Below, piece by piece: positions 6,914-25,153 of a stretch of 55,411 nucleotides of DNA (position 1 is its first letter; each line of letters starts with the position of its first letter). The position numbers and the translations under genes are program-made. This DNA is from Sulfuricurvum sp. (GTDB taxonomy: Bacteria; Campylobacterota; Campylobacteria; Campylobacterales; Sulfurimonadaceae), in contig JAUYRN010000025.1 of the NCBI GenBank assembly GCA_030696775.1, positions 1-55,411 of the forward strand, read 5' to 3'. The notes under the pieces were generated by a model. That model was not told where the DNA came from. It made no database searches and saw nothing but the letters and a program-made list of their open reading frames with translations.

Positions 6914-7606
6914 TCACCATGTATATTTGACCATCGCTTGAAAGACATCATTGTCTTGGTGGTAAGTGTTTTCGTGATAATAATGCCACTCCGTTCCCAC
7001 TTCTAATTTCCCCATAGTTATACCTATCGAAGGTGCCAAATCAAATAACAACTGGTTTTGGGTTAAAAAATCAATTGTTGTCCAGTCGGTAAATCCTTCG
7101 AAATGCCATCGATCATTTAAAGGCAGGGAGTAGTTTACTGAGAGTTGATACGTATTGTCACCGATATTTTGAATTTTTCGATACACATTGAGTCCAAATA
7201 CTGTAAATTTTGGAATATTTAGATCGCTTCCTATCCCATAGAGATTGGCTCGGTATGTATCACCTCGATTATGCTGATAAGCTCCATACCACTCTTTGAC
7301 AATGCCATTGGATGTTGGAGTATTGGTAATTTTGTTAAGACTGATGCGAGGTGAGAATTCACCGTAAAGATCATTTTTTAAATTACTAAACTGCAAACCA
7401 TCTTTGGCGTATGCATAATCGACGAACATATACAAATCCCCATATTCCCATGTTCGAAAGTGCTCGGCTGTTAGTGTTTGTTTTAACCCTGTTTGGGTAT
7501 CGAGGAAAGTGGGACCCTCGAAATTACCATACAGATATTGAACATTGGTCGTAGAAAATGCTAACAGTTGTGATGCTAGAAGAGTGGATAAAAAGAAAAG
7601 TTTCAT
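6914..7606 (-). CDS. Tsx/OmpK-like outer-membrane beta-barrel protein
   Basis: 230 residues with an N-terminal signal peptide (MKLFFLSTLLASQLLAFS). Alternating aromatic and polar strands follow, including YGDLYMFVDYAYAKD, and the protein ends in Trp (AMVKYTW), the usual outer-membrane insertion signal. The pattern resembles nucleoside-specific channels of the Tsx family. It overlaps the upstream binding-protein/GGDEF gene by 4 bp, so the pair are one operon. A pore that admits a small heterocycle and a periplasmic domain that binds it would make sense together. The substrate is unproven. Confidence 0.65.
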   Translation of the reverse strand: MKLFFLSTLLASQLLAFSTTNVQYLYGNFEGPTFLDTQTGLKQTLTAEHFRTWEYGDLYMFVDYAYAKDGLQFSNLKNDLYGEFSPRISLNKITNTPTSNGIVKEWYGAYQHNRGDTYRANLYGIGSDLNIPKFTVFGLNVYRKIQNIGDNTYQLSVNYSLPLNDRWHFEGFTDWTTIDFLTQNQLLFDLAPSIGITMGKLEVGTEWHYYHENTYHQDNDVFQAMVKYTW

Positions 7607-9180
7607 TCACGTTCTTTTGTTTGTGCGAGAGTAATTTGATTTCGACCATTTGTTTTGCTTTTATAGAGGGCATCATCGGCAGCTTTTAAAAGCTCATCTT
7701 CAAGTTTTCCATGGAAGTCAAACATAGAAATTCCTGCTGAAATTGTGATTGAAATAGTATGATTGTTGTAGGTTGTGAGCATATTTTGAATCTCTTTTCG
7801 ACATGCTTCCATCCGTGCGTATGCTTTATCCATGGAAATGCCTGACATAACAATAATGAACTCTTCTCCTCCGTAACGGCAGACAAAATCATTTTGTCGA
7901 ATGGAACCTATTAGACAGGTTGCAATGTTTTGAAGTACCATATCTCCTGCGGCATGCCCATAGGTATCATTAACGTCTTTGAAGTGATCTAAGTCAATGA
8001 TTACAAGAGAAAGAGGGGTCATTTCACGTTGTGCCCGTGCTATTTCTCGCGGCAGTGTTTCAGCAAGATAGCGGCGGTTATAAAGACCCGTGAGAGGATC
8101 GCGAATTGCTTGTTCTTTAATCTTGCGATTGAGTCTGTATATATACGCCGCAACGGACCCAATAAGCGTAAGTAAAACTAACGAAATGGCTAAAGAATAA
8201 TAAAGCCATATGTAATCTTTAGGTGGATTTGGGTTGTATATAAACCCGTTTGGAATATGTGCGGTGGGAATAAATCCTAGTTTGTAATAGGTCTGAGCGA
8301 TATAGCTCCATCGTGCAGGATTCATGTGACCAACTTCGATGAGCTCTGGCACCATGAGTTTGTGAATTTCAGCCGCTTCAAAACGTAGATGATCGCGCGT
8401 TTTGAGTTTTGAATAGTCGGCTAGAATCACATTGATAGTCTCTTCCGGATGTGCGAGTGCATAAGCCCATCCTCGTAAGCTTGCATCACGAAATGCTTTA
8501 ACCCGTTCAGGATACTGTGAGAGCTCATTATCGCTGGTAAACAGACAGTCGCTGTAAAAATCAACTCCATATTTTCGAGGATCGATGGTGACGTAGTCAA
8601 TTCCTTGCTGTTTTAGGTAATAGGGTTCATTGGTCGAGTAGCCATTATATGCGTCTACTTTTTTTGAAATTAAATCGTTGATGTTGAAGGTGCTTTCTAT
8701 AATGTTAAGCTTATCAATATTAATACCCTCATTATAAAAGAGGGCAACAAGTTCAGCATTTTCGATATTTTTGGTCATCATCAGTCGTTTGTTAACCATA
8801 TCGACAATGGTGGAAATGTGAGAGTCTTTACGTAAAATCCAGACATTAGGAGAGGTTTGAAAGAGTGCTGCTAATACGACAACAGGTTTACCATTGAGAC
8901 GTTCATTGATAAGTCCTGAATTACCAATACCATATTGCGCGCGTCCTTCAACGACTTCTTCAACAGGATGAGGATGTTTGTTGTTGGCTTCTACAATCGT
9001 GACATTTAATCCGGCATCACGATAATATCCTTTTTCTTTTGCCATATAATATCCGGCGAATTGAAACTGATGCAGCCATCGAAGCTGAAGCGTAACATCT
9101 TCTAAGGGGTTACCAAAGAGGAAAGAAGGGAGGAACAAGGTCCCCAAAAATAAGAGGAGGGTGTGTCTTTTATTTATCAT
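7603..9180 (-). CDS. Periplasmic NMT1/THI5-like binding domain fused to a diguanylate cyclase
   Basis: 525 residues. After a signal peptide, residues 25-300 match NMT1/THI5/SsuA-type solute-binding proteins (LRWLHQFQFAGYYMAKEKGYYRDAGL). A membrane span lies near 325-350 and a GGDEF domain covers about 360-520. The catalytic loop is RYGGEEF near residue 433, and the inhibitory RxxD site is intact (RQND five residues upstream), so it should make c-di-GMP and be feedback-inhibited. The architecture implies that ligand capture in the periplasm controls c-di-GMP synthesis. NMT1-type domains often bind pyrimidines or sulfonates. It is co-transcribed with the Tsx-like barrel. Confidence 0.9.
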   Translation of the reverse strand: MINKRHTLLLFLGTLFLPSFLFGNPLEDVTLQLRWLHQFQFAGYYMAKEKGYYRDAGLNVTIVEANNKHPHPVEEVVEGRAQYGIGNSGLINERLNGKPVVVLAALFQTSPNVWILRKDSHISTIVDMVNKRLMMTKNIENAELVALFYNEGINIDKLNIIESTFNINDLISKKVDAYNGYSTNEPYYLKQQGIDYVTIDPRKYGVDFYSDCLFTSDNELSQYPERVKAFRDASLRGWAYALAHPEETINVILADYSKLKTRDHLRFEAAEIHKLMVPELIEVGHMNPARWSYIAQTYYKLGFIPTAHIPNGFIYNPNPPKDYIWLYYSLAISLVLLTLIGSVAAYIYRLNRKIKEQAIRDPLTGLYNRRYLAETLPREIARAQREMTPLSLVIIDLDHFKDVNDTYGHAAGDMVLQNIATCLIGSIRQNDFVCRYGGEEFIIVMSGISMDKAYARMEACRKEIQNMLTTYNNHTISITISAGISMFDFHGKLEDELLKAADDALYKSKTNGRNQITLAQTKERE

Positions 9181-12219: not shown

Positions 12220-12648
12220 ATGGCAAAAACGGATGATACGGCCAAGGTCGAAGGGCTAACATTTTTGGATGACGGTGAGGTGCTCTACGACGATTTGTAT
12301 TTATTGTCAGAAACCGATGAAAAAGGAATTATCACCTATGTGAGTGATTCATTTGCAAAAGTTGCAGGATGGAAAGCAGCAGAACTGGTTGGGCAAGCTC
12401 ATAACGTTGTCCGTCATTCTGACATGCCTCGCGCCGCATTCAAATCATTGTGGGATGACGTACAAGAAAAAGGTTTCTGGACTGGATTTGTTAAAAATGC
12501 CCGTAAAGGTGGTGGCTTTTACTGGGTATATGCTACCGTTTTGCGCTCAACGGATAAAAATGGAAGTGTTAAATATGTTTCTATCCGTATTAAACCTTCA
12601 CGCGACGACATTAAAAAAGCAGAAGCGCTTTACGCGACATTAGACTAA
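12220..12648 (+). CDS. Aer/CetB-like PAS redox sensor protein
   Basis: 142 residues, essentially one PAS domain. It closely follows the FAD-binding PAS of the energy-taxis receptor Aer: GIITYVSDSFAKVAGW, AHNVVRHSDMPRAAFKSLW, FWTGFVKN and FYWVYATV. The Arg-His-x-Asp of VVRHSDMP corresponds to residues that hold FAD in Aer. Like CetB of Campylobacter it lacks membrane and signalling domains, so it must act through a partner. The obvious candidate is the soluble receptor next downstream. GGAGGAG precedes the start. It is the first gene of the chemosensory run, although a 184-bp gap with a structured repeat follows. Confidence 0.88.
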   Translation: MAKTDDTAKVEGLTFLDDGEVLYDDLYLLSETDEKGIITYVSDSFAKVAGWKAAELVGQAHNVVRHSDMPRAAFKSLWDDVQEKGFWTGFVKNARKGGGFYWVYATVLRSTDKNGSVKYVSIRIKPSRDDIKKAEALYATLD

Positions 12649-12832: not shown

Positions 12833-14719
12833 ATGGCATTAATAAGACGAGCAGAGAGTTCACCAGTAGCTACAGGTGGCAGTGTAGGACCAGATAAACG
12901 ACGTCAGCGCACGTTGGCAAAACAACAGCAAATTTCTGAGAGTATTGCAGGCGTTGCTACTACGATTTTGGACAATGCACAAGAGAGCGTTAGTGCTATC
13001 GAACAACTCAAAAGTTCCATGGAGCAAATTGCAACAGCGGCAGAAGAAAACAGCGGAGCAAGTGAGCAAGCACTTAAAAATGTTCGCTCTATCAGTTCCA
13101 ATATCGGGCGCATGACGAGCAGTATTGATACCGTCATCAGTTCAACATTGGCGGCGGGTGAAAACATTATGAGTTCGGTGGGGACGATTAATACTTCCGT
13201 GGAGCGAATGGCAAAAGCGGTGAATGTTGCTAAAACCTCTTCTAAAAAATCCGAAGAGCTGAAATTATCCTCTGAAAATATCGGTGAAGCTGTCGGATTT
13301 ATTGCAAAAATTGCTGATCAAACTAATCTGTTAGCCCTCAATGCCGCTATCGAAGCCAGCCGTGCCAAAGAGCATGGTAAAGGGTTTGCGGTGGTTGCGG
13401 ATGAGACTCGTGCGCTTGCCGGAGAATCCGAAAAAAATGCTGATTTTATCTCACGTCTTGTGAATAAAATTCAAGAAAGCATTGATGGGATCATCAAAAG
13501 TATCAATACGACGACTAATATTATTGAACAAACTGGCGGACGCGGCAGTGCATTGAGTTTCAAAATGGAAGAACTTACGAAAATCGCCGTCTATTCCGTC
13601 GAAGCGGCACGAAACATGAGCGGTTATACTCAAAGCCTAAGTCACTCGATTACTCTCATTAATGATGGGTCCAAAGATATCGCTGATGCTTCAAGTGAAA
13701 TCGCTCGTTCAGTTGAAAAAACTCTTAACAGTATCGAAATGCAAAGTAATTCACTTGTTCAGACTGAAGAAGACATCAAAGAACTTAACAACCTTTCCGA
13801 AGAACTCAAATACTCAACGGATACGATGAAATCAGCAGAGGAAATTGCAGCATCTGCAGATGCAATCAGCTCATCGATGGAAGATATTCAAAACTCTCTT
13901 AAAGAAGTAACTTCAGGACTCAATCAAATCGAAGCCGCATCTCAATCTACCAATCAAAGTGCCATTGCGAATAAAGAGTTATTTGAAAGTGGCGTAAGTG
14001 CATCCAAAGATATTTCTAAACTTATCGAAATCGCACGTCGAAATTTTGATTTGTTGAAAGTATCGTTCGCAGATGTAAAAGGGCAAATGATCGGCATTAG
14101 CAATGATTTCACTGCTTCTATGAATGAGGGTGGAAGCGCAAGTAGTGAGCTTGATGTTATCGTAAAAGAGACTCGTAACGTTGATAAAACAGTAGGAAGT
14201 ATCAGTAACAGTATCATTCAGCTCAACATGCTCGCTATCAGCGGTTCTATCGAAGCGGCACGGGCAGGAGACTTTGGAAAAGGATTTGCCGTCGTTAGTG
14301 CCGATATCCGTAATCTTGCCAAAGATTCTGAATCCAATACGGAAAAAATCAACGATACCATCGAATCAATGAACGCTGAAATCGATACAGTACGTACAGA
14401 ATGGTTAAAACTTCTTGTAAATCAAGAGGGTGAAAAAGAGCAAATTACGGCATTGATTCATGAGATTGATAAGATCACAACGATGCTAATTGATTTGTTG
14501 GATCGTTTTACGGGACTAAAATCCATTAATGATCAAAATATCGAAGGGCTTAATCAAGGACTCATTGGAATCAGTGAAATTCAAAAAGCCGTTGAACTTT
14601 CAGCGCGTAATGCACAAGAGTCACGAAAAGCCAGTGAATTGATTATCGAAACAGTGAGTCACATCTCTGAGGGAGTTGAAGAGTTGGCTGTTATGGCAGA
14701 TGAACTTCAACAAGGATAA
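12833..14719 (+). CDS. Soluble chemoreceptor with two receptor-tip modules
   Basis: 628 residues, no membrane span or periplasmic domain, and a basic N-terminus (MALIRRAESS, then DKRRQRTLAKQQQ). Residues 40-240 are a receptor signalling helix pair with candidate methylation residues (ATAAEENSGAS) and the canonical tip (IADQTNLLALNAAIEASRA...GKGFAVVADETRALA). A second module around 400-560 has a variant tip: LNMLAISGSIEAARAGDFGKGFAVVSADIRNLAKDS. Nearly the whole protein is predicted coiled coil. It likely forms a cytoplasmic array with the CheW proteins and CheA here, with input from the PAS protein. There is no C-terminal CheR-tethering pentapeptide. AAGGAG precedes the start. Confidence 0.9.
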   Translation: MALIRRAESSPVATGGSVGPDKRRQRTLAKQQQISESIAGVATTILDNAQESVSAIEQLKSSMEQIATAAEENSGASEQALKNVRSISSNIGRMTSSIDTVISSTLAAGENIMSSVGTINTSVERMAKAVNVAKTSSKKSEELKLSSENIGEAVGFIAKIADQTNLLALNAAIEASRAKEHGKGFAVVADETRALAGESEKNADFISRLVNKIQESIDGIIKSINTTTNIIEQTGGRGSALSFKMEELTKIAVYSVEAARNMSGYTQSLSHSITLINDGSKDIADASSEIARSVEKTLNSIEMQSNSLVQTEEDIKELNNLSEELKYSTDTMKSAEEIAASADAISSSMEDIQNSLKEVTSGLNQIEAASQSTNQSAIANKELFESGVSASKDISKLIEIARRNFDLLKVSFADVKGQMIGISNDFTASMNEGGSASSELDVIVKETRNVDKTVGSISNSIIQLNMLAISGSIEAARAGDFGKGFAVVSADIRNLAKDSESNTEKINDTIESMNAEIDTVRTEWLKLLVNQEGEKEQITALIHEIDKITTMLIDLLDRFTGLKSINDQNIEGLNQGLIGISEIQKAVELSARNAQESRKASELIIETVSHISEGVEELAVMADELQQG

Positions 14720-14724
14720 GGTTC

Positions 14725-16092
14725 ATGTTTTTCGAAGAAGTTTTGATATTCAGACATGGTGAGATTGCTTTTGGTATTCCCACCTCTTTTATTGGTCAAA
14801 TTCTTCGTGTTCCTGATATTACCCCTTTGGCGCTTAGCCCTGGCGAGGTTCGAGGGTTGTGTGCGTTGGGTGGTAACATTGCTACGGCCATTGATATCAA
14901 TCTTCTCTTAGGTTTCCCCTTCTGTCCTGGAACTGAGCCTAAAAATCGTGTTATTACGCTGAATGCTCCTTGGAGTTCATTGTGTTTACTTGTCGATGAG
15001 GTTAGTATTTCCGTTACGGTTGACCCTAAAAAAATTGAGTATCTGGAAACGAATAAAGAGATAATTGCCGCGATCCTTCATCACGAGAATGAATTAATTC
15101 AAGTGATTGATTTAGACCATGCAATGAAGCGTGTGCAAAAAGTTTCGGTTAATCCTCGTAATGTCAGTGATAAAACGATTGTACTTAAGCATACTATGTT
15201 GTCTAACGAGCATGAACGTTATCTTGTATTTAAGATGGGAGGGGTGCACTACGCATTGCTGATTGATAATCTTCGCGAGATTTTAAATGCAGATGTTCCT
15301 ATTACAACCATTGCGGGAGCCAACCCAGAGATACAAGGGATGATGTCGCTGCGAGAAGAACTTATCGTTGTGGCTGATTTACGTTTGTATTACCATTATC
15401 AACCCATTATTGGGGATAAAAATAGAATTATGATTGTTCAGCGTCAGGGCAGGACGTTGGGGCTTGTGATTGACGAGATTGTTGATATTCATGAATTTTC
15501 TCAGTCAGATATTGATGTCAGTGGTGACAACAGTAACCAAATAGCAGGGGTTATTCAATTTGAAGACCATCTTATTTCTCTCATTGGCGAGGAACTCATC
15601 GAGTCGATTATGTCTCGTAATGAGGAGATTATTTTAAACAGTGAAGCGATACTTACCGATACGACACAAGAAGCATCGATAGAAGTTGTGATTTTTCAGC
15701 TTGGAAGTGAAGAATATGCGTTTGAGATCGAAGAAGTAGCTGAGATTATTGATATGACACCCGTGACTCCCGTCGCAGATTCTCATGAGATGATTGATGG
15801 GATCATCAACATACGCGGGCAGATTGTTACGATTGGTTCATTGCACAAGCGGTTAGGAATTGAACCATCGCATCGAGAGGATCAAAAGATTATTATTTGC
15901 CATGCGAAAGGGTCCCGGATTGGTTTTTTTGTGAACTATGTGAGTGATGTTATGGCAATACCTCATGATTTGATGCGTAAAGATGATGGGGAAGACGGAA
16001 TATTTTCGCATATCCTTCACTTAAATGAGGGAAAACGGTTGGTGATGTTATTTAATCCCAATGTATCCCAGCTTCTACGAGGTGAGAAGTAG
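14725..16092 (+). CDS. Protein of three tandem CheW domains
   Basis: 455 residues made of three CheW folds: about 1-145 (EVLIFRHGEIAFGIPTSFIGQILRVPDITPL), 150-305 (RYLVFKMGGVHYALLIDNLREIL) and 315-455 (EVVIFQLGSEEYAFEIEEVAEIIDMTPVTPV). The second and third keep the SLREELIVVADL and NIRGQIVTIGSL type strand. CheW couples receptors to CheA, and three linked copies could bridge several receptor or kinase units in an array. It starts 5 bases after the receptor gene and overlaps cheB by one base, so it is co-translated with them. Confidence 0.9.
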   Translation: MFFEEVLIFRHGEIAFGIPTSFIGQILRVPDITPLALSPGEVRGLCALGGNIATAIDINLLLGFPFCPGTEPKNRVITLNAPWSSLCLLVDEVSISVTVDPKKIEYLETNKEIIAAILHHENELIQVIDLDHAMKRVQKVSVNPRNVSDKTIVLKHTMLSNEHERYLVFKMGGVHYALLIDNLREILNADVPITTIAGANPEIQGMMSLREELIVVADLRLYYHYQPIIGDKNRIMIVQRQGRTLGLVIDEIVDIHEFSQSDIDVSGDNSNQIAGVIQFEDHLISLIGEELIESIMSRNEEIILNSEAILTDTTQEASIEVVIFQLGSEEYAFEIEEVAEIIDMTPVTPVADSHEMIDGIINIRGQIVTIGSLHKRLGIEPSHREDQKIIICHAKGSRIGFFVNYVSDVMAIPHDLMRKDDGEDGIFSHILHLNEGKRLVMLFNPNVSQLLRGEK

Positions 16093-17150
16093 TGAAAAAA
16101 GTATTGATAGCCGATGACTCCGCCTTGGTTCGTAAGCAGCTTAGTGAGATTATAGGGACATTGGATTTTGAAATCGAAACCGCTCGTAACGGGCAGGAAG
16201 CGGTACAAAAAGCGACAGAAACGCAATACGATGTAATCACCATGGATATAAATATGCCTGTGATGGATGGTCTCAGCGCAGTAAAACGCATTATGGAGGC
16301 GCGACCTACTCCTATTTTGATGATCAGCTCTCTTACTACTGAGAGTGCTGGCATTACGATGGAGGCATTGGATGCGGGTGCAGTTGATTATATTGCCAAA
16401 CCTGGAACCATGAATGTGGGAAAATCGGAAAATCGAGAAGATATTCTTGCAAAAGTAACGTCTCTTAGTCGTATTCCTCCTCGTCGCTTAAAGACGATTG
16501 TTCGACGTCCCGTACAGCGAGAGCGAGCTCCTATTCGTCGTGAAAGTAGTTTGGGGCAAGCTCCTACTTTTGTGGAGGTATCAAAAGTGTTGTTAATAGG
16601 TGCTTCTACCGGAGGTCCTGGACTCATTGAGCAGATATGCAAAGCGCTGCCAAGAGGATTTCCCTATGCGGTGTGCATTGTTCAGCACATGCCGGAGCAA
16701 TTTACTGCAGCCTTTGCAACTCGGTTAGATAAAGTCAGCACGTTACCGGTTATCGAGTGTAAAGATCATATGGAGCTTTCAAGCGGAGTGATCTACCTTG
16801 CTCGCGGCGGCGTGCACATGCATTTTGCGAAAAAAGTAACGGGAAAATTTGTCATACGGGAAGAGAAAAATAAAAACAACCGTTTTTTTCAACCCAGTGT
16901 GGATGAGATGTTTGAGAGTGCGGCTAAGATCTTTTCAGGCGATCAAATTACGGCTGTTTTGTTGACTGGTATTGGGGATGATGGAGCCAGCGGGATGGTA
17001 AAAATCAAAAATGCAGGTGGATTTACTATCGGAGAGTCAGAAGAGACAGCAACGGTGTATGGTATGCCAAAAGAGGCATTTGATCGTGGTGGCGTGTCCC
17101 AACAGTTACCGTTTCCAAAAATAGTACGCGCACTGCAAACATTACATTAA
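16092..17150 (+). CDS. cheB: Chemotaxis protein-glutamate methylesterase CheB
   Basis: 352 residues. A receiver domain (1-120, phosphoacceptor Asp52 in MDINMPVMDG) is joined by an Arg-rich linker to the methylesterase/deamidase domain (160-352). The catalytic triad is visible: Ser about 172 (GASTGGPG), His in VQHMPEQF and Asp in GIGDDGASGM. It removes receptor methyl groups when phosphorylated, giving adaptation. The likely substrate is the soluble receptor of the same operon, which has candidate glutamates. The start codon appears to be GTG, overlapping the stop of the CheW gene (TAGTGA). Confidence 0.95.
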   Translation: MKKVLIADDSALVRKQLSEIIGTLDFEIETARNGQEAVQKATETQYDVITMDINMPVMDGLSAVKRIMEARPTPILMISSLTTESAGITMEALDAGAVDYIAKPGTMNVGKSENREDILAKVTSLSRIPPRRLKTIVRRPVQRERAPIRRESSLGQAPTFVEVSKVLLIGASTGGPGLIEQICKALPRGFPYAVCIVQHMPEQFTAAFATRLDKVSTLPVIECKDHMELSSGVIYLARGGVHMHFAKKVTGKFVIREEKNKNNRFFQPSVDEMFESAAKIFSGDQITAVLLTGIGDDGASGMVKIKNAGGFTIGESEETATVYGMPKEAFDRGGVSQQLPFPKIVRALQTLH

Positions 17151-17160
17151 AGGAGATTAT

Positions 17161-17787
17161 ATGGCATTAATAAAAAAACATACAGCACCTATAATTGAGG
17201 AATTCCCTCCATTACAGACACTCCCGGAAGCAATGGCCTATTATCATTCCAATGAGGGTAATTTTGAATCTCAAGCGTATGCGGCAGAAAAAATTGTCTC
17301 TTTTGACGGCGGTGGAGCAAAGTTGGTTCATTTATTGGTGGATGACCCTCATATTCATAAAGATATGGCAAGCTATATCGCATCGTTGCTCACTGCGATG
17401 GATTCTAAGCGTGCCCCGATCGAAGCAATTATGGATTTGTTAAAAGTTCGTAATGCCTATATTCGTAATTTGGGGATTACAACACTGCAAAGTTATGGGG
17501 ATGCAATCAAATATTACATTGTTAAATTTCTTATAGGGAATGATCGCGATTTGCGTATTTTTGCTATCAATGTGTTAGGTGATGTTAATTTCGCTGAATC
17601 ACGTGAAATGCTTGTCGAACTTTTGGAGAGTGAAGCGGATATTAATGTGGCAATGACGGCAGTGGATTACATGGCAGAAATTGGAGAAGTTCGCGACATT
17701 GAGCTTTTGAACAGCGTCAAAGGGCGATTTAACGATGCATATGTTGATTTCGCGGTTGACAATGCTATCCGCAGTATTCGGGGGTAA
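17161..17787 (+). CDS. HEAT-like helical repeat protein of the chemosensory operon
   Basis: 208 residues built of short helical pairs. Repeating units such as IEAIMDLLKVRNAYIRNLGITTLQSYG and DLRIFAINVLGDVNFAESREMLVELL fit HEAT/armadillo-type repeats. There is no catalytic motif, signal peptide or membrane span. Such proteins usually act as protein-binding scaffolds. Its place between cheB and cheR suggests a role in holding the adaptation enzymes or array components, but this is inferred from position only. The first residues (MALIKK) and the Shine-Dalgarno region closely match those of the receptor gene (MALIRR). Confidence 0.75.
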   Translation: MALIKKHTAPIIEEFPPLQTLPEAMAYYHSNEGNFESQAYAAEKIVSFDGGGAKLVHLLVDDPHIHKDMASYIASLLTAMDSKRAPIEAIMDLLKVRNAYIRNLGITTLQSYGDAIKYYIVKFLIGNDRDLRIFAINVLGDVNFAESREMLVELLESEADINVAMTAVDYMAEIGEVRDIELLNSVKGRFNDAYVDFAVDNAIRSIRG

Positions 17788-17790
17788 GGT

Positions 17791-18621
17791 ATGGCCTATC
17801 TTTTAAACGACGAAAGCTTCCATAAAATGACCGATTACATTTACCGCAAAACGGGAATTTTTTTGGAAGTCGATAAGCATTTTGATAAATTAGCAAAATA
17901 CATCGATGTTCGGGCAAAGGTGATCAATGCAGACTCGTTTCGAAAGTATTTTTATACCTTACGATTTGAAGACAAGGACGGGACTGAATTTCAAGAGTTG
18001 ATGAATGCGGTTACGGTAAACGAAACCTATTTTTACCGAGAAAAAGAACAGTTTGAAGTTTTAGTTGATCGTATTTTGCCAGAGCTTCATGCAGTCAAAC
18101 CTCGAGCTGCGCCGATTCGGATTCTTTGTGCTCCGTGTTCGACGGGAGAGGAACCTTATTCAGTCATTTTACATTTGCTTGAAGAAGCGCGCCTGATTGA
18201 AGATAGAGATATTGAAGTTGTGGGAATCGATATTGACAGTACGGTTATTGCAAAAGCAAAATTGGGGAAATACAGCGAGCGTTCAGTTCATGCGATTCCC
18301 GCTGGAGCTTTGGCTAAATACTTTAAGAGACGGACACTAGGATTTGATTTGATCGATGATTTAATCGGAACAGTTGACTTCAAAGTAGCTAATATCTTTG
18401 ATAAAACGCAAATGCGTCAATTGGGAAAATTTGATGTTATCTTTTCACGAAACATGCTGATTTATTTTGATGATGCAAGTCGTAAAGAGGTAGCAATGAC
18501 CTTTTATGACATGGTCAACGTCGGTGGTTATGTATTGCTAGGTCATGCAGAGTATATGAGTCGTATTACTTCTGTCTTTAAAGCTAAAAAAATCGATTCA
18601 ACACTCATTTATCAAAAATAA
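17791..18621 (+). CDS. cheR: Chemotaxis protein methyltransferase CheR
   Basis: Transfers methyl groups from SAM to receptor glutamates. The 276-residue protein has the N-terminal helical domain (1-75), then the class I methyltransferase fold. Signatures are NAVTVNETYFYRE, the SAM loop ILCAPCSTGEEPYS, GIDIDSTVIAKA and VIFSRNMLIYFD, all standard for CheR. It lacks a tetratricopeptide or other extension. It sits 3 bases after the HEAT-like gene. Together with CheB it shows that the pathway has methylation-based adaptation. Confidence 0.95.
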   Translation: MAYLLNDESFHKMTDYIYRKTGIFLEVDKHFDKLAKYIDVRAKVINADSFRKYFYTLRFEDKDGTEFQELMNAVTVNETYFYREKEQFEVLVDRILPELHAVKPRAAPIRILCAPCSTGEEPYSVILHLLEEARLIEDRDIEVVGIDIDSTVIAKAKLGKYSERSVHAIPAGALAKYFKRRTLGFDLIDDLIGTVDFKVANIFDKTQMRQLGKFDVIFSRNMLIYFDDASRKEVAMTFYDMVNVGGYVLLGHAEYMSRITSVFKAKKIDSTLIYQK

Positions 18622-18633
18622 AAGGACAATATT

Positions 18634-19005
18634 ATGCCATTAGTTATATTTGTAGACGACAGTGAAACCGCTCTTGCTTCCACTCGGATGGTAACCGACA
18701 GTATGCCCATTACGGTTAAACAATATTTGAATGCTCCTGATGCACTTCGCGAGATTCAAGGCGGGATGACTCCTGATTTGATTATTACCGATATGAATAT
18801 GCCAGTAATGAACGGGTTTGAGTTTTTACAAGGAGTTCGTGCGCATCCTGCAACCGCACGCACCCCAGTATTGATGCTCACGACTGAAACCCGTGATGAG
18901 TTAAAGCAACAAGGTAAAGCATTGGGATTGACAGGGTGGATTGTCAAACCTTTTAATCCTGCACAGCTCAAGCAAGCGATTGCACGAGTATTACGTTTGG
19001 CGTAA
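18634..19005 (+). CDS. cheY: CheY-type single-domain response regulator (first copy)
   Basis: 123 residues, one receiver domain. The acidic pair is in FVDDSE, the phosphoacceptor Asp is in ITDMNMPVMNG, the conserved Thr is in MLTTET and the Lys in VKPF. It has no output domain, so it acts by binding a partner when phosphorylated by CheA. It precedes the CheZ-like gene, which may be its phosphatase. It differs substantially from the second CheY at 19409, so the two probably have separate targets or one acts as a phosphate sink. Which, if either, binds the flagellar motor cannot be told. Confidence 0.92.
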   Translation: MPLVIFVDDSETALASTRMVTDSMPITVKQYLNAPDALREIQGGMTPDLIITDMNMPVMNGFEFLQGVRAHPATARTPVLMLTTETRDELKQQGKALGLTGWIVKPFNPAQLKQAIARVLRLA

Positions 19006-19008
19006 GTG

Positions 19009-19398
19009 ATGCAGTTTTTACACACACTGGATGGATTGTTGGAACACATTAAATCCGTAGAGCGTGAGACGATAGAAATGACCCAGAAAGCCCAGCTTCA
19101 AGTGGTTCGTTTTATCGAAAAACAAGGTTTGATTCTCGATGATGAAACGTTAGAGGTGATGCAGTATCAAGACATCATTGCTCAGCAGTTAGGGGCAACC
19201 ATCGAAGCGATCGAAAATGCGCAAAAACATTTGCAGTATTTTACGCGTGCATTTAGTGAAGATGATTCACTAGCAGCAGAAAATTTAGAAAAAATGCATG
19301 GCAAGTTAACATCAGCGCTCAAGCGGGCACAAGAGAAGCATTCAGCTTTTGGCGGAAAAATACAGCATCAAGATGATGACGGTATAGAGTTTTTTTAG
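19009..19398 (+). CDS. Short CheZ-like putative phosphatase
   Basis: 129 residues, almost all helical. The segment VMQYQDIIAQQLGATIEAIENA has Asp55 and Gln59 spaced as the CheZ catalytic Asp and Gln (DxxxQ within QDLTGQ in E. coli). The last residues, HQDDDGIEFF, are acidic then aromatic, resembling the C-terminal CheY-binding peptide of CheZ. E. coli CheZ is about 214 residues, so this is a short form. Position between two cheY genes fits CheY-P dephosphorylation. A GTG three bases earlier is an alternative start. Assignment rests on motif, helices and context. Confidence 0.7.
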   Translation: MQFLHTLDGLLEHIKSVERETIEMTQKAQLQVVRFIEKQGLILDDETLEVMQYQDIIAQQLGATIEAIENAQKHLQYFTRAFSEDDSLAAENLEKMHGKLTSALKRAQEKHSAFGGKIQHQDDDGIEFF

Positions 19399-19408
19399 GA
19401 GATATGAG

Positions 19409-19780
19409 ATGGCAACAGTTATGGTAGTCGATGATTCAAAAACAGTACGAAGTTATCACGGCTCAATCTTGCGGGACTTAGGGGTGAATTTTCTTGAAGC
19501 CGAAAATGGGATGGAAGCGCTCGAAAAGACGTTGGATAATGAAGTAGATCTTTACCTCGTTGATGTCAATATGCCAGTAATGGACGGATACTCTTTTGTG
19601 AGTGAACTGCGAAAGCAGCCTGCTCATAAGCTAACTCCTGTCATCATGATTACAACGCAAGAAGCTGCTACCGATAAACTCGAAGCATTCAAAGTAGGGG
19701 CAAGTCTTTTTGAGACCAAACCGATTAAGCCCGATGCCCTCAAAGGGTATCTCCAGTTATTGATCAAAGCCACACTCTAA
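19409..19780 (+). CDS. cheY: CheY-type single-domain response regulator (second copy)
   Basis: 123 residues, one receiver domain. Key residues are present: Asp pair in VVDDSKTVR, phosphoacceptor in LVDVNMPVMDG, Thr in MITTQE and Lys in ETKPI. The opening DDSKTVRSYHGSIL resembles receivers of chemosensory rather than transcriptional systems. It follows the CheZ-like gene and is 10 bases before cheA, so it is expected to be phosphorylated by that kinase. GGAGATATGAG lies before its start. Confidence 0.92.
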   Translation: MATVMVVDDSKTVRSYHGSILRDLGVNFLEAENGMEALEKTLDNEVDLYLVDVNMPVMDGYSFVSELRKQPAHKLTPVIMITTQEAATDKLEAFKVGASLFETKPIKPDALKGYLQLLIKATL

Positions 19781-19790
19781 GGGACACACA

Positions 19791-22568
19791 ATGGATGCGC
19801 TACTCGAACAATTTTTACTTGAAGCCAGAGAAAATCTAGCTTTCATCGATCAAAACATTGACAAAATCGGCGGGGATGATCCTGAACTGCTTAATTCGGT
19901 TTTTCGTGCCGCTCATACACTCAAGGGTGGCTCTGGAATTGTCGGATTTGAAGCGGTTAAGCGAATCACTCATCACGCAGAAGATTTGTTGGATATGCTG
20001 CGATCGGGTAAACTCGATTTTCAAGAGAGAATGGTTGAGTCTCTCTATAACGCATTTGATGAGGTGGTGAATCTCATTGAAGCGGCAGAAGAGAGCGGGG
20101 ATATTGTCAGCGCGGATGAAGAACGAATCGACGAAATTGCAAAAGAGCTTAGCGGACTTATGGGTAAAACCATTGAAGTGCAAGTATGGACATGTCCTTT
20201 TAGAAGCGTAAGGGATATTAATCGCATTGTGAATCTTCCGATGCCATTTCTACGCTCTTTTGGTCAAAAAATGCCCTTTGCTCTTGGGGCTATTGATGAA
20301 GAGATGTGTTCGAGAGAGCAACTGTATGCGGTCGTTTTTGATATTGATGAATCGTGCATGGTGTATGGAAATGATCCAGTTTATACGCTATCTCTTATTG
20401 CCGATAAAGTACTTGGTGTTCATTCGTGCATGAGCAACAATGCGGCTACTTCTGCGCTTAGCGGATTTGATGATCCGGATGGATTGTTATTGAAACTTTC
20501 AATGGTTGCTTTTGTATACGCTACGTATGAAGAGATTAGCGATGCATTGTTCAACTTTAGTGATGAGCTCGAATTTATGCCATTGGATATTGTGACATTA
20601 TTGGGAGTAGATGAGGGAGAGCGTGGGCATACGTTGGATGTTCTCAAAGAGCTAAGCCATGAGTGTGCTGTGCAAATCGATGCGAACAATCCTCTCGAAA
20701 TCTCTCAGCGCATCGTCAATACTTTACCCCTTATTGGAAAAGATACGATTCAAAGCGCACAGCTCAATCGCGCGCTTGATGTTATTGGTTGTATAGCTGA
20801 TCGTGATTTAAAAGAGTTGAAATCCTTTTTTGCCAAATTGCCGCAGGGGCATACCTATGAGTATAGTAGTGAATCGTGTGCGCAGAGTGTGGATGAAGCT
20901 TCTTCTCAGCCGACAGTAATAGTAAAAGAACCGCTGGATGAGGTTGCGCTTCAACGGCTGCAAGCTATTCTTACTCAGCAACTTCAAACTCTTGAGTGTG
21001 TAGAGGATGACAGTGCTCTTGAGCGAGTCAAGGCGATGATAAGTGCTCTGAGTGAGCATTTAGAAACACTTCCAAGTCAAGATGCTTCGTCTGATGAAGT
21101 GATGAGATGGTTGCGTCAAGAGTTAGGATTGGAATCTCGCGAAGAAGTTTGTTTTGATGCTCCAGCAGAGAGTTTAAATGAGATAGACGAAGAGATTTTG
21201 AGTATCCTAGAACTTACGATTCCTGAGGTAGAAATTACAGTTCCTGCCCCAGTAAATATCATCACTGCTGCAGTAGAAAAGCCATTTGTGGTGATCAAAC
21301 CTGCTGTTGTCGAAGAGCTAAAAATTGAAGCAGACGTTCAAAACGCAGGAACTAAAAAAGGGGTTATTGGTAAAACCGTGAAGGTCGATCAGGAATCAAT
21401 TGATAATTTGATGAATGTAGTGGGCGAGCTTCTTGTGGCTAAAAACTCTCTACCGTATTTGGCAGACGGCGTACATGCAATGACTCCAGAGGGGACAAAA
21501 CGGGCGATCATGGAAAAATACACCTTTATTAACCGCCTCACCGAACAGCTCCAAGATTTGATTATGTCGATGCGTATGCTCCCAATCTCCTATGTATTTG
21601 ACCGTTACCCAAAACTGGTACGGGATATTTCGAAAAACCTTAATAAAAAAGTCACACTAATGATGGATGGAGGAGAGACGAAACTCGATAAAAATATGAT
21701 CGAGATGCTTGCCGATCCTATGATTCATATTATGCGAAATTCTCTTGATCATGGAATCGAACTTCCTGAAATACGTATCCAAAAGGGTAAAAATCCAGAG
21801 GGTCAAATTACCCTTAATGCCTATCCGCAGAGTGATAAAATCATCGTCGAAATTCGTGATGACGGAGCGGGTATCAATGTTGATCGTGTTGTTCAAAAAG
21901 TATTGGAAAAAGAGCTTTTGACATTGGATCAAATCGATGCAATGAGCGATGATGAAAAAGCAGCACTGGTTATGTTGCCTGGACTCTCTACGGCTGAGAC
22001 GATTAGTGAGTACAGCGGACGCGGCGTAGGTATGGATGTGGTACGCAAATCAATCGAAGGATTTGGTGGCACCATCCGCATCAAAACCGTTCCCAATCAA
22101 GGGACAACGATCTATCTCTCTATCCCAGTATCCCTCGCTGTAACGTCATTGCTTCATGTGACGATGAGCGGTGTTCACTATGGATTTCCAATGGATAGCG
22201 TCTCTGAGACTGTTAAAATCGAGTCATCGCAAATTGAATATTTACAAAATGAGCCGTTTATTTATTTACGCGGAGAAGTTATTCCTCTGTTGTTTACACG
22301 TCAAATGCTCGACGAGAAAGTATTGATCGGCAAAACACTTCCAGTTGTGGTACTCAATATCAAGGGTAATTTACTGGCTGTTGTTGTCAATGCGCTTATC
22401 GGGCAAATTGATGTCGTACAAAAACCGCTGGAGGGAATTATGGAACAGCATCCAATTTTCAGCGGTACGGCATTGTTAGGTAACGGGCAAATTATCATGG
22501 CGATTGATCCGCTGGGGATGTTACAGCTTTCGCACACACTTCAAACTGATTACCAACACGCAAGCTAA
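19791..22568 (+). CDS. cheA: Chemotaxis histidine kinase CheA with an enlarged P1-P3 linker
   Basis: 925 residues. P1/HPt covers 1-105 with the phosphorylated His42 (AAHTLKGGSG). Dimerisation helices begin near 528 (VDQESIDNLMNVVGELLVAKN). The ATPase domain has N-box HIMRNSLDHGIE near 645, DDGAGI and GRGVGMDVV, and a CheW-like domain occupies about 780-915. Residues 135-370, where a small P2 is expected, are a long region of unrecognised fold (VWTCPFRSVRDINRIVNLP...), followed by an acidic, probably flexible linker to 520. There is no C-terminal receiver, unlike the CheAY of Campylobacter and Helicobacter, which marks a different chemosensory class. Confidence 0.95.
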   Translation: MDALLEQFLLEARENLAFIDQNIDKIGGDDPELLNSVFRAAHTLKGGSGIVGFEAVKRITHHAEDLLDMLRSGKLDFQERMVESLYNAFDEVVNLIEAAEESGDIVSADEERIDEIAKELSGLMGKTIEVQVWTCPFRSVRDINRIVNLPMPFLRSFGQKMPFALGAIDEEMCSREQLYAVVFDIDESCMVYGNDPVYTLSLIADKVLGVHSCMSNNAATSALSGFDDPDGLLLKLSMVAFVYATYEEISDALFNFSDELEFMPLDIVTLLGVDEGERGHTLDVLKELSHECAVQIDANNPLEISQRIVNTLPLIGKDTIQSAQLNRALDVIGCIADRDLKELKSFFAKLPQGHTYEYSSESCAQSVDEASSQPTVIVKEPLDEVALQRLQAILTQQLQTLECVEDDSALERVKAMISALSEHLETLPSQDASSDEVMRWLRQELGLESREEVCFDAPAESLNEIDEEILSILELTIPEVEITVPAPVNIITAAVEKPFVVIKPAVVEELKIEADVQNAGTKKGVIGKTVKVDQESIDNLMNVVGELLVAKNSLPYLADGVHAMTPEGTKRAIMEKYTFINRLTEQLQDLIMSMRMLPISYVFDRYPKLVRDISKNLNKKVTLMMDGGETKLDKNMIEMLADPMIHIMRNSLDHGIELPEIRIQKGKNPEGQITLNAYPQSDKIIVEIRDDGAGINVDRVVQKVLEKELLTLDQIDAMSDDEKAALVMLPGLSTAETISEYSGRGVGMDVVRKSIEGFGGTIRIKTVPNQGTTIYLSIPVSLAVTSLLHVTMSGVHYGFPMDSVSETVKIESSQIEYLQNEPFIYLRGEVIPLLFTRQMLDEKVLIGKTLPVVVLNIKGNLLAVVVNALIGQIDVVQKPLEGIMEQHPIFSGTALLGNGQIIMAIDPLGMLQLSHTLQTDYQHAS

Positions 22569-22578
22569 AGGATAACAA

Positions 22579-23355
22579 ATGGAAGATTATATAGTTTTTA
22601 CGGTGGGAACGAATTTTTATGCACTCAATGTCGCGAATGTAGAACGGATTATTCAGATGCCGAGTGTTACAGCCATTCCTAACGCACATCCTTTTGTGGA
22701 TGGAATGATGTCTTATGAGAAGCGTGTGACAAAAGTGGTAAATTTTCGTAAAATGACAGCCATGACGGCGCATGAAGAAGAAATTCATAATCTGTTTCAA
22801 CGTGTTGGGAATGATCATCAAGTTTGGGTCGATACTTTTATGGCAGCGATGGAAAACAACAGCGGATTTGCTCTTACTACGGATCCTCATGCCTGTCGTC
22901 TTGGAAAATGGTTGGACAATTACAGTACCCATGATGCAGATGTATTGGCAATTTTAAAGGTACTGCGTCCTACCCATGCGAAACTTCATGAGCGCGGACG
23001 TGAAATATTAGCACTGCGTGAAACCAACCCTACCGAGGCTCTGGAGCAGGCACGCCGTGAAATTGTGTCAATTTTTTCAACGACACTGGGCGAAATTCAT
23101 AAAATGGGAGAAATGTCTCAATCCATTTCAGGGCACATGCAAAAACTATTGATTTACCAAGCGGGAGAGAGCTTTTTTGCAATCAAAGTTGATGGGATTG
23201 ACGATATAGCACGGATTGAACCTTCAATGATCAAGACGGTTGATTCAAATAGTAATTTAGGAGATTTTTTAGAAACGTCAGGCGTCGTTGAGATGGGTGA
23301 GCGACTGGTAAATGTTATAAAATCGGTCTCAATGCCGGTAAAAGAGGGTGCATAA
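22579..23355 (+). CDS. CheW split by an inserted zinc-binding CZB domain (first copy)
   Basis: 258 residues. Residues 1-62 are the first half of a CheW fold (DYIVFTVGTNFYALNVANVERI, then FVDGMMSYEKRVTKVVNFRKM). Residues 190-258 are the second half (KLLIYQAGESFFAIKVDGIDDIARI, then RLVNVIKSVSMPV). The roughly 125 residues between match the CZB domain: HxxW at 80-83, CRLGKW at 106-111 and HAKLH at 133-137, giving His80, Cys106, His133 and His137 as zinc ligands with family spacing. CZB domains elsewhere respond to zinc and hypochlorous acid. This protein could therefore couple metal or oxidant state directly to the CheA array. Confidence 0.88.
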   Translation: MEDYIVFTVGTNFYALNVANVERIIQMPSVTAIPNAHPFVDGMMSYEKRVTKVVNFRKMTAMTAHEEEIHNLFQRVGNDHQVWVDTFMAAMENNSGFALTTDPHACRLGKWLDNYSTHDADVLAILKVLRPTHAKLHERGREILALRETNPTEALEQARREIVSIFSTTLGEIHKMGEMSQSISGHMQKLLIYQAGESFFAIKVDGIDDIARIEPSMIKTVDSNSNLGDFLETSGVVEMGERLVNVIKSVSMPVKEGA

Positions 23356-23633: not shown

Positions 23634-24416
23634 ATGACGTCTGATTACATTATTTTTACAATTGCGCAAAGAGATTATGCGCTAGAAGTTAGTCATATTG
23701 ATCGTATTGATCAGATTCCACATCTGACTCCTATTCCCAATGCACATCCTTATATTGATGGATTGATGACGTATCAAAACCTGACGGCAAAGGTGATTAA
23801 TTTTCGAAAAATGACCAATTTGCAAACGCATGAAGAACAGATGTTGGAATTATTTAATCAGGTAATAAAAGATCATCAAAATTGGGTAGTATCACTGGAA
23901 ACGTCATTACGCGATGGTGTCCCTTTTAAGCTTGCCCTTGATCCCCATTTATGCCGATTGGGCAAATGGATTTATTCGTATCAAGCACACGACCCTGAGG
24001 TGCTTGCTATTATTCGTGCCCTCATACCTGTCCATGCGCAGTTACATGAAACGGGTGCAAAGTTATTGCAGCAATGCACGGGTGATACTGAAGCCACCTT
24101 GGAATGCTACCGAAATGAGATTGTTAATGGTGTTTTCGTGGATACAATGCGCCTCTTGGGTGAAATGGTACGAAAAAGTACCGAAATTTCTTCTCAAACA
24201 CAAAAACTTCTCATTTATCGAAGCGGAGACGGTTTTTTTGCGATCAAAGTGGATGCCATCCGAGATATTATTGCATTGGATGAGGGAGATATAAAACCTT
24301 ATGCGCATAATGTAAAAGTAGGCGCATGTTTGCGCACACGCGGAGTTATCGAGTACAAAAAATCACTCGTTGTTGTTATCGATTCCGTCACTCTTCCGAT
24401 TGAAGAGGTGGCATGA
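23634..24416 (+). CDS. CheW split by an inserted zinc-binding CZB domain (second copy)
   Basis: 260 residues with the same architecture as the protein at 22579. CheW half 1 is 1-62 (DYIIFTIAQRDYALEVSHIDRI), the CZB insert has HxxW at 81-84, CRLGKW at 107-112 and HAQLH at 134-138, and CheW half 2 begins near 193 (KLLIYRSGDGFFAIKVDAIRDII). All four zinc ligands are kept. The two proteins align end to end, so this is a tandem duplication with the STAS gene between the copies. Divergence is considerable, suggesting different partners or sensitivities. Its stop overlaps the ParA gene by 4 bp. Confidence 0.88.
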   Translation: MTSDYIIFTIAQRDYALEVSHIDRIDQIPHLTPIPNAHPYIDGLMTYQNLTAKVINFRKMTNLQTHEEQMLELFNQVIKDHQNWVVSLETSLRDGVPFKLALDPHLCRLGKWIYSYQAHDPEVLAIIRALIPVHAQLHETGAKLLQQCTGDTEATLECYRNEIVNGVFVDTMRLLGEMVRKSTEISSQTQKLLIYRSGDGFFAIKVDAIRDIIALDEGDIKPYAHNVKVGACLRTRGVIEYKKSLVVVIDSVTLPIEEVA

Positions 24417-25153
24417 AGACCATAGTTGTATCTAATCGTAAAGGTGGCTCTGCAAAAACAACCACGGCAGTCAATCTTGCGTGTGAGCTTGCCAAGCGAG
24501 GTTCAGTATTGCTCATTGATTTAGATACGCAAGCGCATGCATCTATGGGTGTGGGCTGTATGGGATCGCTTGATAATGGAGTGCACTCGATTTTTTTTGG
24601 TAAAACTCTCAGTGAAACTTTCGTTCCGACCGTATTTGAGCAACTGACACTCTCTCCTGCAACCGAATTCTTCGATGTGTACGAAAATGGTGATTTAAGA
24701 GGAGTATTACGAAACCGTTTTTTTAATGAAATGATTCACGAGTTCTTCGATTATGTAGTGATTGATACGCCCCCCACATTTGATTCTCTGCTCAAAAATG
24801 CACTTGAAGTTGCTGATGCAGTTGTGATCCCTTTTGTTCCTCACCATTTGGGTGTGGTTGCCGTGGGGCAAATGGTGCGAGCTATTTATCAAAATGCCTC
24901 ATATAATGGACAACGTACCCCAAATGTAGGAATTTTACCGGTCATGGTCAATACTCATATCCCTGAACATCGTGACGCTATTGCCAAAGTAAAAATACAG
25001 TTTGGAGAGGAAAAGTTTTTTTCTCCCATCGGAATTGATGTTAAGCTTTCCAATCAGTTTGAAGGTGGAAATCCGATAATCAATCAGCCTGAGCGATCCC
25101 GTGGAATAAAAGATTACCATCGCTTTGTCGAAGAGTTGTTAAATAGGATATAA
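24413..25153 (+). CDS. ParA/MinD-type ATPase of the chemosensory operon
   Basis: 246 residues. The deviant Walker A motif KGGSAKTTT is at 10-18, with the signature lysine, followed by LLIDLDTQAHASMG and the Walker B strand YVVIDTPP. There is no ParB gene nearby. ParA relatives inside chemotaxis operons, such as PpfA of Rhodobacter and ParC of Vibrio, position and segregate chemosensory clusters. The membrane-free receptor of this operon makes a PpfA-like role for a cytoplasmic array the best guess. The ATGA overlap with the preceding CheW-CZB gene ties it to the operon. Confidence 0.9.
   Translation: MKTIVVSNRKGGSAKTTTAVNLACELAKRGSVLLIDLDTQAHASMGVGCMGSLDNGVHSIFFGKTLSETFVPTVFEQLTLSPATEFFDVYENGDLRGVLRNRFFNEMIHEFFDYVVIDTPPTFDSLLKNALEVADAVVIPFVPHHLGVVAVGQMVRAIYQNASYNGQRTPNVGILPVMVNTHIPEHRDAIAKVKIQFGEEKFFSPIGIDVKLSNQFEGGNPIINQPERSRGIKDYHRFVEELLNRI

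Follow-up and report, generated by a model that had tools for sequence, protein, structure and literature searches.

A DosM chemoreceptor of the F9 class in Sulfuricurvum with two unlike signalling tips 300 residues apart

What can a soluble chemoreceptor do with two signalling tips, one of them a variant, and no domain with which to sense? The question is raised by a reading frame in Sulfuricurvum sp. contig JAUYRN010000025.1, of which the window analysed here is a stretch of 55,411 nucleotides. The frame runs exactly from 12833 to 14719, opens with ATG and encodes 628 residues. Its product matches the Pfam family MCPsignal (PF00015) twice (whole-protein E-value 9.1e-51; in a genome scan with MCPsignal, 5.9e-30 for tip 1 and 5.4e-17 for tip 2, scored apart), bearing out the preliminary description, which had read two tips in one chain about 300 residues apart and no sensor domain: the tips lie at residues 163-193 and 463-493, a spacing of exactly 300, and MCPsignal is the sole Pfam family above cut-off in the protein. 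Tip 1 (QTNLLALNAAIEASRAKEHGKGFAVVADETR), which had been called standard, is near-canonical rather than fully so, with RAKEHG for RAGEHG and DETR for DEVR, departures that are a trait of this Campylobacterota clade; tip 2 reads QLNMLAISGSIEAARAGDFGKGFAVVSADIR. In an AlphaFold2 model the chain is helical from residue 20 onward. The features of the gene, which we identify below as dosM, are:

12833..14719, plus strand: dosM, soluble chemoreceptor with a double signalling domain, 628 aa (open reading frame, Pfam, CheW3-adjacent homologues)
12890..13813, plus strand: module 1, helical hairpin, residues 20-327 (AlphaFold2 helix 20-327, constant heptad phase)
13031..13060, plus strand: ATAAEENSGA, residues 67-76, the sole strict methylation-type motif left, in module 1 (motif scan)
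13319..13411, plus strand: tip 1, near-canonical, residues 163-193 (sequence, family alignment)
13814..13822, plus strand: joint between modules, residues 328-330 (AlphaFold2 helix break, one-residue phase slip, conservation)
13823..14713, plus strand: module 2, helical hairpin, residues 331-627 (AlphaFold2; 2ch7_A match)
14219..14311, plus strand: tip 2, family-specific variant, residues 463-493 (family alignment, CheW3-fetched loci, genome pattern scans)

Judged by its sequence, the gene at 12833-14719 is that of DosM, the F9-class receptor with a double signalling domain, because a tandem double signalling domain beside a triple CheW protein is the stated signature of that class: the main text of Mo et al. 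(2022; PMC9321776) gives DosM and CheW3 as F9 signatures, and reports a sensory domain to be absent from 98% of DosM homologues. This type of gene is already known, and the Sulfuricurvum protein is a real, complete DosM. NCBIfam gave no match above cut-off for the receptor, and a PDB sequence search found no solved DosM, its matches being single-hairpin receptors only. The neighboring genes are:

12220..12648, plus strand: stand-alone Aer-like PAS protein, candidate input (domain match; R-H-x-D motif)
14725..16092, plus strand: cheW3, three concatenated CheW domains, the F9 signature partner (three CheW stretches; same order in relatives)
16092..17150, plus strand: cheB (domain matches)
17161..17787, plus strand: HEAT-repeat protein (domain match)
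17791..18621, plus strand: cheR (domain matches)
18634..19005, plus strand: cheY-like receiver (domain match)
19006..19398, plus strand: 130-aa protein, possible phosphatase of CheZ type (motif judged by eye only)
19409..19780, plus strand: cheY-like receiver (domain match)
19791..22568, plus strand: cheA with Hpt, dimerisation, HATPase and CheW domains (domain matches)
22579..23355, plus strand: CheW whose fold is interrupted by a CZB zinc-binding domain (Pfam, alignment, AlphaFold2/Foldseek)
23634..24416, plus strand: second CheW with an inserted CZB domain (Pfam, alignment)
24413..25153, plus strand: ParA-like ATPase (domain matches)

The plus-strand order is thus PAS, dosM, triple cheW, cheB, HEAT, cheR, cheY, small protein, cheY, cheA, two CheW-CZB genes and parA, so that the F9 set in the window is complete, with DosM and CheW3 accompanied by CheA, CheB, CheR and CheY. 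cheA is likewise in the set at eight related loci (L038-L041 and L043-L046), one of which, L038, on a contig named uncultured Sulfuricurvum, has 100% identity across a 225-residue query. A similar HEAT-repeat protein occurs in 50 of 66 other F9 loci. Domain searches found no family match for the 130-residue protein, which among F9 loci is present in those of Campylobacterota only; read by eye, its QYQDIIAQQ and acidic-hydrophobic C terminus resemble CheZ motifs, and it is possibly a CheZ-like phosphatase. The ParA-like ATPase closes the cluster in those loci of the clade that extend far enough, and could position or segregate a cytoplasmic array. Since the same genome holds, outside the window, three more long CheW-domain frames of CheA size (714, 830 and 862 aa), as well as 13 ordinary single-tip receptors, the F9 system coexists with other che systems. 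A second che cluster of this genome (L017, C18:196229) contains a soluble protein in which Aer-PAS is combined with one degenerate receptor tip (VFLSLNASVSSYKIENGGETFGVLARDIR), and within the window 7603-9180 encodes a GGDEF domain fused to an NMT1/THI5-like solute-binding domain.

The best-described relative is DosM of Vibrio cholerae (VC1403; F9, also cluster I), which is likewise soluble, has two signalling domains and a triple CheW beside it, and belongs to an F9 operon with its own CheA. It comes from a different phylum and enters the comparison by description, not sequence; the Sulfuricurvum operon differs in including the Aer-like PAS and CheW-CZB genes, and the Sulfuricurvum receptor in having a second module stripped of most methylation-type motifs. 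A search in the order of Alteromonas returned only close relatives of locus L048. Within Campylobacterota, Mo et al. report partial F9 sets in Nitratiruptor and Nautilia, which also pair DosM with CheW3; those clusters are without cheA and cheY, whereas the Sulfuricurvum/Sulfurimonas operon is complete, and we found no mention of a full F9 set in this phylum in the main text of that paper (PMC9321776).

Relatives were retrieved with the second module as query, which gave 80 second-module hits across phyla, nearly all with a multi-CheW gene directly downstream; four loci (L072, L076, L083 and L098) have four CheW domains rather than three in the CheW protein beside DosM, as counted with a home-made HMM, and one (L058) has a DosM-CheW3 pair on each strand within 10 kb. 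Of the 78 full-length family members, drawn from several phyla and including a few nearly identical to one another, 77 have a tip spacing of exactly 300, counting L062 and L083, which a first-tip motif missed and which were read by eye. The sole exception, L023, has a spacing of 293, one heptad shorter; its 7-residue gap adjoins the joint, and both of its tips are more degenerate. Three further members with broken frames (L055, L065, L116) have the first tip at 300 or no more than 1 base off. As the spacing of 300 holds at pairwise identities down to 25%, it is far better kept than the sequence, and because relatives in several phyla keep both tips at this distance, the two tips are not a matter of chance. 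A sample fetched by the second tip is open to circularity, and as a check the neighbors of CheW3 were fetched instead: the loci covering the region have the same second tip, and the spacing is 300 wherever both tips are covered.

The second tip has a signature of its own. Numbering from Q as 0, M+3, V/I+6, G+8, D+28, I+29 and N+39 are near-invariant (M+3 in 77/78 members, D+28 and I+29 in 78/78, N+39 in 76/78); M+3 to G+8 belonged to the search pattern and are hence partly circular, and D+28, I+29 and N+39 lay outside it. SG for NG in this tip is a minor variation seen in other lineages too. A DNA pattern of the signature had 4 hits in 296 Campylobacterota genomes and 2 in 240 Alphaproteobacteria genomes (G302 and G591), every one of them in a DosM. 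The idea that single-tip receptors also carry the variant was accordingly rejected: across the 536 genomes scanned the signature occurs in second modules only, the pattern missing the very divergent second tip of L023. In a tree built on 150-residue tip regions, all second modules form one split (support 0.87) against all first modules and the single-tip receptors of this genome. The variant tip, noticed in the preliminary description from this one gene, is therefore real and a family-wide trait of DosM. That the tips are always different and almost always 300 residues apart is a new detail: we found no description or discussion of either point in the literature searched, a scope outside which a key 2016 paper lies.

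Is the second tip a working one? It may be silent towards the kinase or, as in the active-inhibitory pair that the preliminary description had also offered, inhibitory, mainly structuring the array while tip 1 controls CheA, a reading that fits either geometry discussed below and is not exclusive of them. The near-invariant substitutions of tip 2, A to G at +8 and E to D at +28, would suit such a role, as would the fact that module 2 has lost adaptation motifs in this clade; but tip 2 retains the tip glutamate (E+11) and arginine (R+14), and other lineages retain methylation-type motifs in module 2. On balance, we regard it as a tentative possibility. Lineages outside the clade have on average 3.9 strict methylation-type motifs in module 1 and 2.94 in module 2; in the Campylobacterota clade the means are 1.7 and 0.42, which suggests that adaptation in this clade acts on module 1 only.

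The two modules are otherwise closely similar. Heptad phase, taken as averaged hydrophobicity over 77 gap-free sequences, shows a 3.5-residue period that is nearly constant from 140 residues before tip 1 to ~150 after it, shifts by roughly one residue in the stretch from +147 to +182, and is then nearly constant to the C terminus. AlphaFold2 (mean pLDDT 90) predicts two long runs of helix (20-327, 331-627) separated by a break that coincides with the phase slip and with a conserved motif, LK[NY]STDxxK[SD]AEE, at the joint. With residues 180 and 480 as turn centers, limits can be set for three arms, which measure ~149, 151 and 148 residues, or 21 heptads each, and both modules have a conserved Gly at -94 and +116 relative to their own tip. 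Unbroken heptads, arms of ~21 heptads and shared Gly positions mean that both hairpins, which are joined head to tail, are complete and alike over their length. The heptad count proposed earlier for the two modules thus finds periodicity kept in all four arms, and with both modules conserved in relatives, the outcome then envisaged, a single complete hairpin accompanied by a decayed duplication, does not hold. F9 receptors are expected in the 44H heptad class. Module 2 (model residues 323-628) superposes on the Thermotoga maritima chemoreceptor cytoplasmic domain 2ch7_A, which has one hairpin and one tip only and which we take to be of class 44H, over 298 residues (Z 11.4, rmsd 4.7 Å); this fit and the arms of ~21 heptads are what was observed on heptad class.

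How would such a chain be arranged? Among the arrangements that the preliminary description had offered was contact with two CheW/CheA lattices, and this is now the best reading: a DosM of a complete F9-class system, forming a rod that bridges two CheA/CheW baseplates, is the best explanation of the locus and, we think, a probable one. The extended, layer-bridging geometry is inferred by homology with V. cholerae DosM, reported from cryo-tomography to extend as a rod into both baseplates and to be needed for the array (PMC7534058). The two tips would plug into two opposing baseplates, the rods scaffolding a purely cytoplasmic two-layer array, and the near-invariant spacing would act as a ruler that sets the distance between layers. 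At 0.15 nm per residue, the 300 residues of the Sulfuricurvum protein predict a distance of ~45 nm, as against the 35 nm that separates V. cholerae F9 baseplates (PMC3964821, PMC7184735). This mismatch, together with a single-chain model that is ambiguous in superposing on a single hairpin, leaves the extended rod in some doubt.

The second arrangement offered, a chain folded back on itself, would make DosM a pseudo-dimer: a turn at the joint (328-330) would lay one hairpin against the other in a four-helix bundle that replaces the receptor dimer and puts both tips in one baseplate. The single-chain AlphaFold2 model does appear to be folded back, with a helix break at 328-330 (pLDDT about 80-90 there), and it superposes across both halves on one hairpin (3zx6_B, 303 residues, model 33-607). 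As the arms after tip 1 (149 residues) and before tip 2 (151) are nearly equal, the tips would be level in the folded chain, and family-wide tip asymmetry would be natural for a built-in heterodimer. However, prediction of a single chain is biased to bury the dimer face, so that modelling an obligate dimer in this way can force a fold-back; the joint is free of Pro and poor in Gly, with the heptad pattern continuing through it at a one-residue slip; and V. cholerae DosM is reported as an extended rod (PMC7534058). We consider the folded chain unlikely. The model also gave high-Z helical-bundle matches (TTYH, ClyA-type and others), which we discount as a generic likeness among long helices.

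A reading of tip 2 as a copy of tip 1 that has decayed and lost its function is hardly credible: the Pfam score of tip 2 is lower and the clade has lost most module 2 motifs, but the tip has its own strong constraint in all members and its own split from all module 1 and single-tip sequences, keeps E+11 and R+14, and differs from tip 1 in a way that is real and family-wide, so that decay of module 2, as a general statement, is refuted.

In the layer-bridging rod, the two tips would be specialised for non-identical contacts, with different neighbors or different baseplate compositions. A stronger version, which we find somewhat doubtful, is that DosM is obligately asymmetric, its tips having diverged into two fixed roles in all lineages, either as a polarised sandwich of unlike baseplates or as a pseudo-dimer in which one tip faces the trimer and the other CheW; if true, this would be at odds with a view of the two layers as equivalent.

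A receptor of this kind would take in its signal via partners, not by itself. The likeliest inputs would be the Aer-like PAS protein (redox or energy), the CheW-CZB adaptors (zinc or an oxidant) and other soluble receptors in the same trimers, and CheA would then phosphorylate the CheY proteins. Input from the adjacent PAS protein, as had been supposed at the outset, is plausible: all F9 loci checked in the clade (the window, L020, L021 and L038-L046) have its gene immediately upstream of dosM, and by eye the protein has the R-H-x-D motif, which in Aer is associated with the binding of FAD. The arrangement is reminiscent of CetA/CetB of Campylobacter jejuni (PMC2628428), a stand-alone Aer-like PAS protein with a receptor lacking that sensor, although CetA sits in the membrane and has a HAMP domain and a single tip, and the pairing of PAS protein and DosM is drawn from gene order only. 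In both CheW-CZB proteins the CZB domain divides the CheW fold into two halves (Pfam above cut-off), and a model (AlphaFold2 with Foldseek) matches both CheW and the CZB of DgcZ. The insertion is also seen in an alignment with the CheW proteins, devoid of CZB, that occupy this operon position in L039, L040 and L046. The His/Cys zinc-ligand pattern (H80, C106, H133, H137) is invariant in 8 sequences and predicts a zinc site. The architecture is known and rare, at 1.4% of CZB proteins (PMC8262984). In another Campylobacterota family (L022:469-3172), DosM is followed directly by CheW-CZB in place of CheW3. The PAS protein and CheW-CZB may feed the DosM array.

These observations bear on cytoplasmic F9 arrays at large. 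The near-invariant 300-residue spacing predicts the distance between their layers, and any model of an F9 array must explain the family-wide difference between the two tips; fixed spacing and tip difference together make open questions on these arrays testable. For Sulfuricurvum and its relatives, the operon suggests a route by which a sensorless scaffold may receive signals, through a PAS protein and adaptors with a sensor set within their CheW fold.
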